Source: Candidatus Saccharimonadota bacterium (lineage in GTDB: Bacteria > Patescibacteriota > Saccharimonadia > Saccharimonadales > Saccharimonadaceae). Taken from it: a stretch of 62,607 bases of DNA. The notes under the pieces are model-generated. The model saw only the letters and a program-made list of their open reading frames with translations. It was not told where the DNA came from and made no database searches. The translations under genes and the position numbers were made by a program. The DNA lies in assembly GCA_027312225.1 (NCBI GenBank), contig DAICXK010000005.1, forward strand, positions 1 to 62,607. The letters run 5' to 3'. Shown here one piece after another: positions 1-3,847 of the stretch. The first letter of the stretch is position 1. Every line of letters starts with the position of its first letter.

Positions 1-455
1 GCCGTAGCACGCTGAACGGTAAGTTTCTCGAAGTGAATCCGAATCTTGTTCGCGAACTAAAGCGACTTGATTTGTGGGAAAGCGTCAAAGAGGAAGTGTT
101 TGCCAATCAGGGCGACATCCAAAACATCGATGGTATTCCTGATGAAGTGAAGGCGGTCTATCGCACCAGCTTCCAACTATCGCCATACGCATTCATCGAG
201 GTTGCAGCCCGAGCGCAAAAATGGGTTGATCAGGCAATCAGCCGCAATATGTACCTTGAGACACGTGATATTGATGAATACGTCAAGATTTACAGCGAGG
301 CATGGAAGCGTGGTCTGAAGACGACCTACTATCTCCACGTGAAGCCACGCCACCAGTCAGAGCAGACGACGGTGTCGGTCGAAAAGACTGCAGAGACGAA
401 GATCAAGCGACAGGGCGGCGCACGCGGCTTTGGCTTTGCTAAGAGGAGCGCGTAA
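1..455 (+). CDS. nrdA: Ribonucleoside-diphosphate reductase alpha subunit, C-terminal part
   Basis: Open at the 5' edge: frame 3 reads through from base 3 without a stop, so this is the last ~150 residues of a class I ribonucleotide reductase large subunit. Seen: the NPNL...LW...G.I..IDGIP block, the WVDQAISRN.YL block and the KTTYYLH motif, whose paired Tyr belong to the radical-transfer path to NrdB. The protein stops 40 residues after that motif with GFGFAKRSA and contains no cysteine there. Class I alpha subunits normally end in a flexible linker with a CxxC-type pair that re-reduces the active site; it is missing here. The stop overlaps the next ATG by one base, and nrdB lies 259 bp further on, so the three form an operon. 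Identification certain; the missing tail is a direct observation. Confidence 0.95.
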   Translation, partial: RSTLNGKFLEVNPNLVRELKRLDLWESVKEEVFANQGDIQNIDGIPDEVKAVYRTSFQLSPYAFIEVAARAQKWVDQAISRNMYLETRDIDEYVKIYSEAWKRGLKTTYYLHVKPRHQSEQTTVSVEKTAETKIKRQGGARGFGFAKRSA

Positions 456-713: not shown

Positions 714-1715
714 ATGTCAGACTATCAACATCCACAGGGAGGCATCTTAGGATCGGGTCTTCGTGACGGGCTCAGCCTGCACCCTATCCGTTACCCATGG
801 GCAATGGATTTATATAACCAAGCGGTAGCCAACACTTGGTTTCCAAACGAGGTACAGTTAGTGCAAGATCTACAGGACTTTGAAAAGCTGACTGATGATG
901 AAAGGCACGCGCTGAAGACGGTCATTAGCTATCTCAATCCGAACGAGCTATTGATTAATAAGTCACTCGCCTTTGGTATTTACCCATATGTTAACGCGGC
1001 TGAAGCGCAGTTGTACCTATCCAAGCAGATGTGGGAAGAGGCCAATCACTTTATGACCTTTGAATACATCATCGAGACCTTTCCGTTTGACCGTGAAGAG
1101 ATTTACGCCGCCGGATTTGGCAAAAAGTCATTGGCTGACAAGGCGGACTTCCAAAACAAGCATCTTGATGTGATGCTTGATCCGAACCTTGATATCTACA
1201 GCCTCGAAGGTAAGAAACAATTTGTGCGCAGCCTGGTTGCCTATAACATCGTGCTTGAGGGTATCTGGTTCTATAGCGGCTTTATGGTAGGTATGAGTTT
1301 CCGCCAGCGCAATTTGCTCCGTAATGTCGGATCACTTCTTGACTGGATTACTAAGGATGAGAATCTTCATCTGACATTCGGCATCAACTTGCTACTGACG
1401 ATTTTGGATGAAAACCCAGAACTACAAACGCAAGAGTTTGCTGATGAGATTCGTGCGCTGATCTTGCAAGCGGTCGAACTGGAGAAGGCATATAACGAGG
1501 ATATGTTGCCAAAGGGTATCCTTGGCCTCAATGCTGATTATGTCAACCAGTACGTCATGCACATGACCGACCGACGCCTTGTCGAGCTTGGATTCGAACC
1601 TGAATATAACGTACCGAACCCTGCCAAATGGATGGCGACGGCTAACGACACGCTAGAGCTCGTGAACTTCTTTGAAAGCACCAACACCAGTTACGAAGTA
1701 AACAGCGGAAACTAA
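714..1715 (+). CDS. nrdB: Ribonucleotide reductase beta subunit, class Ic-like (no radical Tyr)
   Basis: 333-aa ferritin-like R2 subunit that generates the radical used by NrdA. Metal ligands can be placed: Glu78, Glu109, His112, Glu182, Glu216 and His219. The first ligand is Glu, not the Asp of Escherichia coli R2. The residue four after the first ligand His (E. coli Tyr122) is Phe116, in the context EANHFMTFEYI. Ligand spacings of 31, 73 and 34 residues match those I recall for Chlamydia trachomatis R2 (E89/E120/E193/E227), the class Ic prototype with a Mn/Fe cofactor. A Tyr near the C-terminus (TSYEV) could be the last step of radical transfer. GAGGAG lies just upstream of the ATG. The family call is certain; the Mn/Fe cofactor is inferred. 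Confidence 0.96.
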   Translation: MSDYQHPQGGILGSGLRDGLSLHPIRYPWAMDLYNQAVANTWFPNEVQLVQDLQDFEKLTDDERHALKTVISYLNPNELLINKSLAFGIYPYVNAAEAQLYLSKQMWEEANHFMTFEYIIETFPFDREEIYAAGFGKKSLADKADFQNKHLDVMLDPNLDIYSLEGKKQFVRSLVAYNIVLEGIWFYSGFMVGMSFRQRNLLRNVGSLLDWITKDENLHLTFGINLLLTILDENPELQTQEFADEIRALILQAVELEKAYNEDMLPKGILGLNADYVNQYVMHMTDRRLVELGFEPEYNVPNPAKWMATANDTLELVNFFESTNTSYEVNSGN

Positions 1716-2751: not shown

Positions 2752-2779
2752 TTGTGTTACGCTATATGTGGCGTATAAT
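2752..2779 (+). promoter_or_regulatory. Promoter with NrdR-box-like palindrome in its spacer
   Basis: A -35-like TTGTGT (2752-2757) and a perfect -10 TATAAT (2774-2779) are 16 bp apart. The spacer is filled by the 16-mer ACGCTATATGTGGCGT (2759-2774), whose ACGC/GCGT arms are inverted repeats around TATATGTG. This resembles the NrdR box (consensus of the ACACwATATnTwGTGT type) in length, symmetry and ATAT core. A repressor bound here would block RNA polymerase. It drives the 57-aa CxxC peptide gene. The promoter is firm; the NrdR identity is inference. Confidence 0.65.
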
Positions 2780-2833
2780 CAGACATAGAAACCACCACAA
2801 AAAGAATATAAGGGTAATAGGGGACAACACAAA

Positions 2834-3007
2834 ATGAACGCATCACAAATCATTTCAGACGACATGACTTTGGAGGAAAAGCTTGCTGCTATTGATCAGG
2901 CAATGGCAAATGCAAACGCATCCGCCCAGGCATCAGCAGCTGCAAACGGCACTGCCTTTGCGCCGCTTGATCCAGCTGATTTGACGATGTGTGAAGGCTG
3001 CCAGTAG
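2834..3007 (+). CDS. 57-aa peptide ending in CEGCQ, candidate detached NrdA redox tail
   Basis: ATG at 2834, 57 codons, TAG at 3005-3007, with its own promoter and terminator. Three parts are visible: an N-terminal amphipathic-looking helix (IISDDMTLEEKLAAIDQAM), a low-complexity Ala/Asn/Ser/Gln linker (about residues 25-40), and the tail AFAPLDPADLTMCEGCQ. The ending, acidic residues then C-E-x-C-Q, is the form I know from the redox-active C-termini of class I ribonucleotide reductase alpha subunits, which is exactly what NrdA in this window lacks. I infer that it docks on NrdA and passes electrons from thioredoxin/glutaredoxin to the active site. An alternative is a RiPP-type precursor with a Cys core, but no modification enzyme is nearby. 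The ORF is well supported by its signals; its function is a hypothesis. Confidence 0.8.
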   Translation: MNASQIISDDMTLEEKLAAIDQAMANANASAQASAAANGTAFAPLDPADLTMCEGCQ

Positions 3008-3029
3008 GCATCGTGACCGCGAAAGGGAG

Positions 3030-3057
3030 GGCTCGTACATAGTGCGAGCCTTTATTT
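3030..3057 (+). terminator. Rho-independent terminator of the 57-aa peptide gene
   Basis: GGCTCGTAC / GTGCGAGCC (3030-3038 with 3042-3050, ATA loop, one G-U pair) followed by TTTATTT. It closes a monocistronic transcript that begins near 2786. Confidence 0.9.
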
Positions 3058-3064
3058 AACTACC

Positions 3065-3847
3065 ATGATAACTGCATTCCTTATCACCCTCCTTGCCGGA
3101 CTTGCCACAAGTATCGGCGGGTTGTTGGCGACACATAAAAAGGTGCTCGATCGGCCAATGCTTGCCGTGGCACTGGCATTTGCTGCCGGGGCAATGTTGT
3201 TTGTGTCGTTTGTGGAGATATTACCGCTGGGGCTCGAGGGGGCGGACGGGGCAATGGAATGGCTGGTGTACGGGGCATTCTTTGCTGGTATTGCGGTGGT
3301 GCTGATGATTGATAGGATCTTGCCAAAATCGCTAAATCCCAATGAACTAGAGGGTAGCGAGGACGGGCTGAGCGGCCACGACACCAAGGCAAACAAGAAG
3401 CTCCTACGTAGCGGGCTGTTGGTGGCGTTAGTATTGGCACTGCACAACTTTCCCGAAGGCATATCGACCTTTTTGGCATCGTACCAAGATTTGACCGTTG
3501 GTATTGCACTGGCTATCGCGATTGCGATTCATAACATTCCTGAAGGCATCGCGGTGGCAGCACCGGTGTATGCGGCGACCAAGAGCCGCAAGAAGGCGTT
3601 TTGGTGGGCGACGGCATCGGGCTTGGCAGAGCTACTGGGGGCGCTGGTTGGTATCGCGCTACTGCAACTCATCATCCCAGCCGAATTAATGGGGCTGTTG
3701 TTTGGATTCGTCGCTGGCATGATGGTGTTTGTTGCCATTGATGAACTGTTACCAGCAGCACGACGCTATCAGACAGATAAACACCAGGTGGTCTACGGAT
3801 TGATAGCAGGATTTACGGTGGTGGCACTGAGCCTTTTATTACTGTAA
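3065..3847 (+). CDS. zupT: ZIP family divalent metal transporter, ZupT-like
   Basis: 260 aa, eight predicted membrane segments, a normal size for ZupT. The two signature helices are intact: HNFPEGISTFLASYQD and HNIPEGIAVAAPVYAAT, with the His, Asn, Pro and Glu residues that form the metal path in TM4 and TM5. Segments open with a GGLLATHKK turn and a His-poor cytoplasmic loop (about residues 90-118, charged). It imports Zn2+ and possibly Fe2+ or Mn2+ into the cytoplasm. Mn import would be relevant beside a class Ic-like reductase, but that link is conjecture. No obvious Shine-Dalgarno site; zwf follows after 12 bp. Confidence 0.93.
   Translation: MITAFLITLLAGLATSIGGLLATHKKVLDRPMLAVALAFAAGAMLFVSFVEILPLGLEGADGAMEWLVYGAFFAGIAVVLMIDRILPKSLNPNELEGSEDGLSGHDTKANKKLLRSGLLVALVLALHNFPEGISTFLASYQDLTVGIALAIAIAIHNIPEGIAVAAPVYAATKSRKKAFWWATASGLAELLGALVGIALLQLIIPAELMGLLFGFVAGMMVFVAIDELLPAARRYQTDKHQVVYGLIAGFTVVALSLLLL

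Follow-up and report, generated by a model that had tools for sequence, protein, structure and literature searches.

The DNA analysed in this work very probably encodes a split class I ribonucleotide reductase (RNR), in which the redox arm of the large subunit would be a separate protein of 57 aa working in trans. An earlier note had put forward such an enzyme, and the checks made here support it insofar as small ORFs of this kind track tail-less NrdA and align with the tail which other NrdA proteins carry in cis; the enzyme is biochemically untested. What is observed is an NrdA without a tail, a conserved small protein with a tail-like, homologous ending, which is inherited with it and whose gene has its operon or its type of operator in common with nrdA, the recurrence of this arrangement, and copies of the small gene in phages. 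Nearly all cells and many viruses cannot do without RNR, whose swinging redox tail moves too freely for structures to show it well; in a natural two-piece enzyme the tail becomes a reagent which one can supply, withhold, mutate or dose.

Gene organization of the window

The window, by which we mean the whole stretch of 62,607 nucleotides, comes from a Saccharibacterium and carries on its plus strand, in this order, the 3' end of nrdA, an 85-aa ORF, nrdB, a CYTH-domain gene, a PPOX-type gene, the 57-aa gene and a ZIP transporter. The features on which the analysis rests are the following.

3 to 455, plus strand: 3' part of nrdA, class I RNR large subunit (PF02867, E = 1.1e-26; NF005101, E = 6.8e-67)
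714 to 1715, plus strand: nrdB, class I RNR small subunit, class Ic-like (PF00268, E = 6.2e-72)
2759 to 2774, plus strand: operator-like palindrome ACGCTATATGTGGCGT, NrdR-box-like, overlapping the tail-gene promoter, 75 bp before the ATG
2774 to 2779, plus strand: -10 element TATAAT of the tail gene, identified by eye and conserved across relocated loci
2819 to 2824, plus strand: Shine-Dalgarno-like AGGGGA; similar purine-rich sites precede most homologues
2834 to 3007, plus strand: putative free redox tail gene, 57 aa, with homologues in about 100 further genomes and low dN/dS; the peptide consists of a helix (residues 13-38), an Ala-rich linker and the tail D46-Q57 with C53 and C56
2969 to 3004, plus strand: redox tail DPADLTMCEGCQ, homologous by alignment to the cis tail (C)PIDPQERLxCDSCQ of related NrdA
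3027 to 3057, plus strand: intrinsic terminator, composed of a hairpin (3027-3053) and a U-rich run (3051-3057), from RNA folding

The window opens inside nrdA because the contig ends there, and residues 1-112 of NrdA were found on a separate contig of the same 760-kb genome (C6:7-342, minus strand). The best solved match of NrdB is the Chlamydia R2c protein 1syy (E = 3.7e-71), and the window protein has Phe at the position of the radical Tyr (EEANHFMTF aligned with EEAVHTHTF of 1syy). By this residue NrdB is class Ic-like, and a Mn/Fe cofactor can at most be inferred. Between nrdA and nrdB sits a coiled-coil-like ORF of 85 aa (455-712) which overlaps the nrdA stop. It was considered as a component of the system and rejected, as it was not detected at the locus of the same genus; ORFs resembling it are present in a few other genomes.

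A large subunit without its cysteine tail

The C-terminus of NrdA in the window reads ...KTTYYLHVKPRHQSEQTTVSVEKTAETKIKRQGGARGFGFAKRSA, with RGFGFAKRSA as its final residues, and contains no Cys (translation of frame 3-455). Its PF02867 match covers positions 412-523 of the Pfam model, and its NF005101 match covers model positions 648-788 of 822, with the final 34 positions absent. The C-terminal Cys pair which class I NrdA carries in cis is missing from this protein and is carried by a separate gene. The absence of the tail had been claimed before, together with the caveat that an error at the 3' end of nrdA might hide it. The absence is real: the intact NrdA of G001, a genome of the same genus, is 803 aa long and equally Cys-less at its C-terminus, and therefore the end seen in the window is not a 3' sequencing error.

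Residues C229, C443, C458, Y759 and Y760 of NrdA, which we take to be the equivalents of C225, C439, C462, Y730 and Y731 of Escherichia coli, are invariant in 77 sequences, tail-less ones included. The active-site region of the window's own nrdA is partly missing from the assembly, and the same-genus orthologue is included in the 77. As the active-site cysteines are kept in tail-less NrdA, the enzyme still needs re-reduction. A GFG-like stretch ahead of the linker is common to the tail-less and the cis-tailed versions of NrdA, and the break therefore falls in the flexible linker.

The tail gene and its peptide

The small gene had been described as coding for a helix, a low-complexity linker and a CxxC ending, and this ending recurs throughout the homologues. 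In all 98 extracted peptides the C-terminus is formed by CxxC and one further residue (Q, E or S), with no other Cys in the protein; the presence of both Cys in every peptide excludes chance. Residues I20, D46, P47, C53 and C56 are invariant in an alignment of 49 rows, and AlphaFold predicts for the window peptide a single long helix of residues 13-38 (pLDDT about 84) followed by a loose end. No significant family was found for it in Pfam or NCBIfam, and PHROGs gave only phrog_14482 (E = 0.0011), a family of unknown function, over the helix. The peptides of the window and of G001 are 98% identical (dN 0.015, dS 0.67), and the median dN/dS over 43 independent pairs of tail peptides is 0.33.

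These data bear on the suspicion that the 57-aa gene is a chance ORF, or that an assembly or frameshift artefact has removed a real tail from NrdA, which the position of the window nrdA at a contig end could invite. The comparative data refute it, and we give it practically no credence: the same arrangement is seen in more than 100 genomes, single-contig ones included, dN/dS is well below 1, and the peptide has its own Shine-Dalgarno site and start codon and is often out of frame with nrdA.

The peptide could be aligned without gaps to the C-terminal end of cis-tailed NrdA homologues, as the earlier note had anticipated. The closest tailed NrdA proteins (G758, G803, G690, G795 and G500), which are 54-58% identical, carry (A/V)CP(I/V)DPQxRxxC(D/E)SCQ in cis. 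This outgroup ending can also be written CPIDPQERLxCDSCQ; the trans peptides APLDPQDLLMCDSCQ (L104) and VPIDPQEFLMCEGCQ (L120) align gaplessly with it, and both position and final Gln match. One alignment of peptide-only rows with NrdA seemed misaligned and was replaced by another.

We propose the following mechanism. The tail-less NrdA keeps the catalytic barrel and the active-site cysteines which form a disulfide in each turnover; it has lost the flexible C-terminal arm which re-reduces them, and the 57-aa protein would supply this arm. A redoxin would reduce the CxxC pair at the C-terminus of the peptide, and the reduced pair would then enter the NrdA active site, exchange its dithiol for the disulfide and leave. 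The N-terminal helix would probably be a docking element substituting for the covalent link. Binding to NrdA, docking of the helix, electron transfer in trans and dependence on a redoxin are all inferred. When NrdA and peptide were modelled with AlphaFold as a read-through fusion (L124, in which the stop is read as Gly as a modelling device only), the NrdA body was predicted with high confidence, the helix with a pLDDT of 71-76 and the CxxC end with lower values; given this low confidence, a docking site is neither supported nor excluded. Read-through of the stop codon as a natural source of a fused NrdA was rejected, since the relative frame varies from genome to genome and the peptide comes with a Shine-Dalgarno site and a start of its own.

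Distribution in Saccharibacteria

Both the 57-aa protein and the C-terminus of NrdA were sought in 295 genomes of the family. A tail-less class I NrdA of the window type is present in 103 of them (a count taken from two search tables), and 102 of these 103 also have the peptide. In 98 it was found at E<=1e-4; in four others (G034, G035, G078 and G211) a diverged peptide lies behind nrdA and still ends in DPxxxxxCxxCQ; and in the single NrdA genome without peptide (G178) the contig breaks off within nrdA. The peptide occurs without NrdA in G015, which is 67% complete. A truncated helix remnant (MGQIISNTMTLEEKLSAINQAIASLS, followed by a stop; L162, reverse strand near 3208-3379) was noted in G087, a genome 96% complete in which no window-type NrdA was found. 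Genomes which have only a distant class II-like RNR showed no peptide, the tail profile giving no match below E = 0.1. A normal tail alongside the peptide, which the earlier note had named as a ground for refutation, is seen in no genome with the window type of NrdA and in one genome of a sister lineage, G832, which is described below.

The same pair of NrdA and peptide is present in three further families of the order (G305/G336, G427/G469 and G346). In a scan of named genomes the matches were mostly to Saccharibacteria or Patescibacteria, some being labelled only as "bacterium" and one as "Chloroflexi", and the near relatives of the window were Saccharibacteria. The tail gene lies less than 320 nt behind nrdA, in or out of frame, in 69 of 98 loci. 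It should be noted that the genomes are a sample and mostly metagenome assemblies, and that all of the evidence is comparative.

Promoter, operator and terminator

The 57-aa gene had been credited with its own promoter and terminator, and both can be made out, even if automated scans called neither. A consensus promoter scan gave no promoter for the tail gene, although a good TATAAT is visible by eye at 2774-2779; a simple terminator scan missed the hairpin at 3027-3053 which RNA folding gives with -20.3 kcal/mol (z = -4.55) and UUUAUUU at its 3' side.

The palindrome over the -10 element of the tail gene is conserved across genera, and 2759-2774 is the sole zero-mismatch match within the window. 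With up to two mismatches accepted, the palindrome RCGCTAYATNTRGCGY was found about 100 bp or less upstream of the start in 23 of the 29 tail genes which are not directly behind nrdA. It stands directly before the tail gene in none of the 69 loci where this gene directly follows nrdA; 57 of these loci have enough upstream sequence, and in 31 of them the palindrome precedes nrdA. It resembles NrdR boxes, with one strong copy and only a weak signal of a second box at +33; known NrdR sites are composed of two 16-bp boxes 14-17 bp apart (PMC12051234). The palindrome common to the promoters of nrdA and of the relocated tail genes is a possible NrdR-type operator, for which no pair of boxes has been shown. 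As it often precedes nrdA or the relocated tail gene, and as the tail gene lies mostly behind nrdA, the hosts appear to co-express tail and enzyme.

The earlier note had further supposed that separate regulation lets the cell dose the tail. The peptide would then be, in addition to the redox arm, an independently dosed throttle, and the cell would tune reductase turnover through how much free tail it makes. That the gene stands apart and has a promoter of its own, both in the window and in some two dozen further genomes, is compatible with this, as are the phage copies without operator and the second, apparently phage-borne copies in a few host genomes (see below). We consider it unlikely, and for the host the supposition is unsupported, because 69 of 98 loci have the gene directly behind nrdA and 23 of the 29 others have an operator like that of nrdA, so that the hosts seem to co-express the two.

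Recurrent detachment in other Patescibacteria

On a tree of 58 NrdA proteins, calculated with the tail left out, the presence or absence of a cis Cys tail has to change four times, each change being forced by starred branches. We infer from it that, within Patescibacteria, NrdA lost its tail and a free tail appeared on at least three occasions. The NrdA of G600 ends in AAPTA and a small ORF behind its nrdB ends in GDPNLNVCESCQ, while its four nearest relatives carry the ending GDPNLNICESCQ in cis. In the family of G695, which belongs to the same class as the window, NrdA is just 39% identical and mostly tail-less. Free-tail loci of the G695 type are L338, L370, L371, L375, L377-L379, L382-L384 and L386; in three genomes of this family with tail-less NrdA (G831, G838 and G842) the tail search found no free tail. 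The free tails of this lineage form a second family of 30-37 aa, M...(D/E)WDKPM(V/T)CPIDPKELAECEACQ, preceded by a strong GGAGGG site, and their gene lies away from nrdA, often beside a LOG/lysine-decarboxylase-like gene.

The sister-lineage genome G832 carries a cis-tailed NrdA plus two free tails (L361, L370, L386), and may represent an intermediate stage or a reversion, or else a chimeric assembly. Both G832 and the three genomes without a detected free tail count against the proposed split enzyme. One of its free tails adjoins endolysin-like and HNH genes.

This recurrence, together with the homology to the cis tail, has to be weighed against the idea that the peptide regulates RNR or helps to assemble it, for instance as an inhibitor or as a metal or cofactor chaperone of the class Ic-like NrdB. 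Its CxxC would then bind metal or sense the redox state, and NrdA would be re-reduced otherwise, e.g., directly by a small thiol. CxxC motifs are often metal-binding, and the tail gene keeps company with nrdA and nrdB and seems to be co-regulated with them. However, the ending of the peptide corresponds by homology to the redox tail which related NrdA proteins carry in cis, position and final Gln included, and free tails are found where NrdA lost its tail in separate lineages, which would not be expected of a chaperone. A regulator or assembly factor is therefore improbable, and a redox arm in trans remains the reading which we prefer.

Tail genes in phages

Tail genes of the window type were identified in 23 IMG/VR contigs (48-72% identity; L417-L439) and of the G695 type in two (L450, L451). 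These contigs were each read in part, and their viral status in IMG/VR is predicted. The host operator is absent from the 23 window-type phage genes, and a profile search did not find NrdA or NrdB in the 255 kb read around the 25 viral tail genes. Their neighbours include terminase, portal protein, endolysins, a DNA polymerase exonuclease subunit and polynucleotide kinase. Named phage genomes gave no peptide match. Second copies of the tail gene in the host genomes G145, G193 and G832 sit among phage-like genes, which suggests a phage origin for those of G145 and G193. By eye, these two copies (L238 and L239, respectively) lie on other contigs near integrase/terminase-like or GroEL-like ORFs.

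A cis tail is present in 75 of the best 80 viral NrdA loci; three others are tail-less and two run off the contig. A free tail is present within the locus in all three of the tail-less cases and in none of the 75 tailed ones, and some phages carry what is predicted to be a split class I RNR of their own. Viral tail-less NrdA and/or NrdB together with a short free tail whose end reads DPM(D/E)LLxC(D/E)SCQ were observed in L452, L453 and L459 (also L440, L443, L445 and L447).

A small, soluble-looking peptide with a CxxC end might also be a miniature electron carrier which serves other disulfide enzymes in general and merely happens to be inherited with RNR. Its near-perfect co-occurrence with tail-less NrdA, the gene order and the operator type in common leave very little room for such a carrier, as does its absence from the 75 tailed viral NrdA loci and from the genomes with class II RNR only. 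Returning to the redox arm of NrdA, we lean, with some reserve, towards regarding it as a free-standing mobile gene, which would have separated from NrdA on three or more occasions in Patescibacteria and which phages would carry alone, without the host operator, keeping the host reductase turning over during infection. It would be a minimal phage auxiliary gene of about 50 residues which may influence the deoxynucleotide supply of the host.

Comparison with known systems

The remark in the earlier note that no system of this kind had been described was too strong, since in the split class II RNR NrdJa/NrdJb of Pseudomonas aeruginosa, called by its authors the only split RNR in a non-viral organism, NrdJb mediates dithiol exchange in trans and so passes electrons (PMC4520616). 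Here, as in that system, which is the nearest precedent and is found in other Proteobacteria as well, a catalytic subunit without redox C-terminus is paired with a separate, here putative, dithiol-exchange protein, and the redox cysteines reside on a separate polypeptide (CxxC plus one residue in 98 of 98 peptides). The two parts of NrdJa/NrdJb come from the same operon and are both needed for a functional enzyme. NrdJa/NrdJb is a class II enzyme which uses B12, has no NrdB and contains a folded NrdJb of about 229 aa, whereas the enzyme proposed here is a class I NrdA/NrdB with a helix and tail of 57 aa. Only an arm of 30-70 aa is separate here, its detachment is recurrent, its gene is sometimes far from nrdA, and copies are phage-borne. 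This would be a split class I RNR common to many cellular species, and would mean that, in bacteria with reduced genomes, gene fission has split off one and the same arm repeatedly. No free tail for class I RNR is described in the literature searched, in which most subscription journals were not covered.

In the Aeromonas phage Aeh1 a class I NrdA is split by insertion of the homing endonuclease mobE and is still functional (PMC2988022). There the cut lies inside nrdA and concerns one phage, whereas here only the terminal redox arm is separate, and in many species. No homing endonuclease was found between nrdA and the tail gene: the intervening genes in the window are nrdB and those of the CYTH and PPOX types, and in 69 of 98 loci the gap is shorter than 320 nt.

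The class Ic RNR of Chlamydia (R2c, 1syy) is closest to the window NrdB and has the Phe at the radical-Tyr position in common with it; Chlamydia NrdA keeps its tail in cis. NrdH and glutaredoxin are small CxxC electron carriers for RNR with a thioredoxin fold. The peptide does not meet this description, having no Pfam match and one long predicted helix, and with its flexible CxxC end it would replace the NrdA arm and not the redoxin. The cis-tailed class I NrdA proteins belong to the same catalytic family, have the same active-site Cys and carry the same motif, (C)PxDPxxxxxCxxCQ; the difference is that here the motif is encoded by a separate gene, with a helix added.
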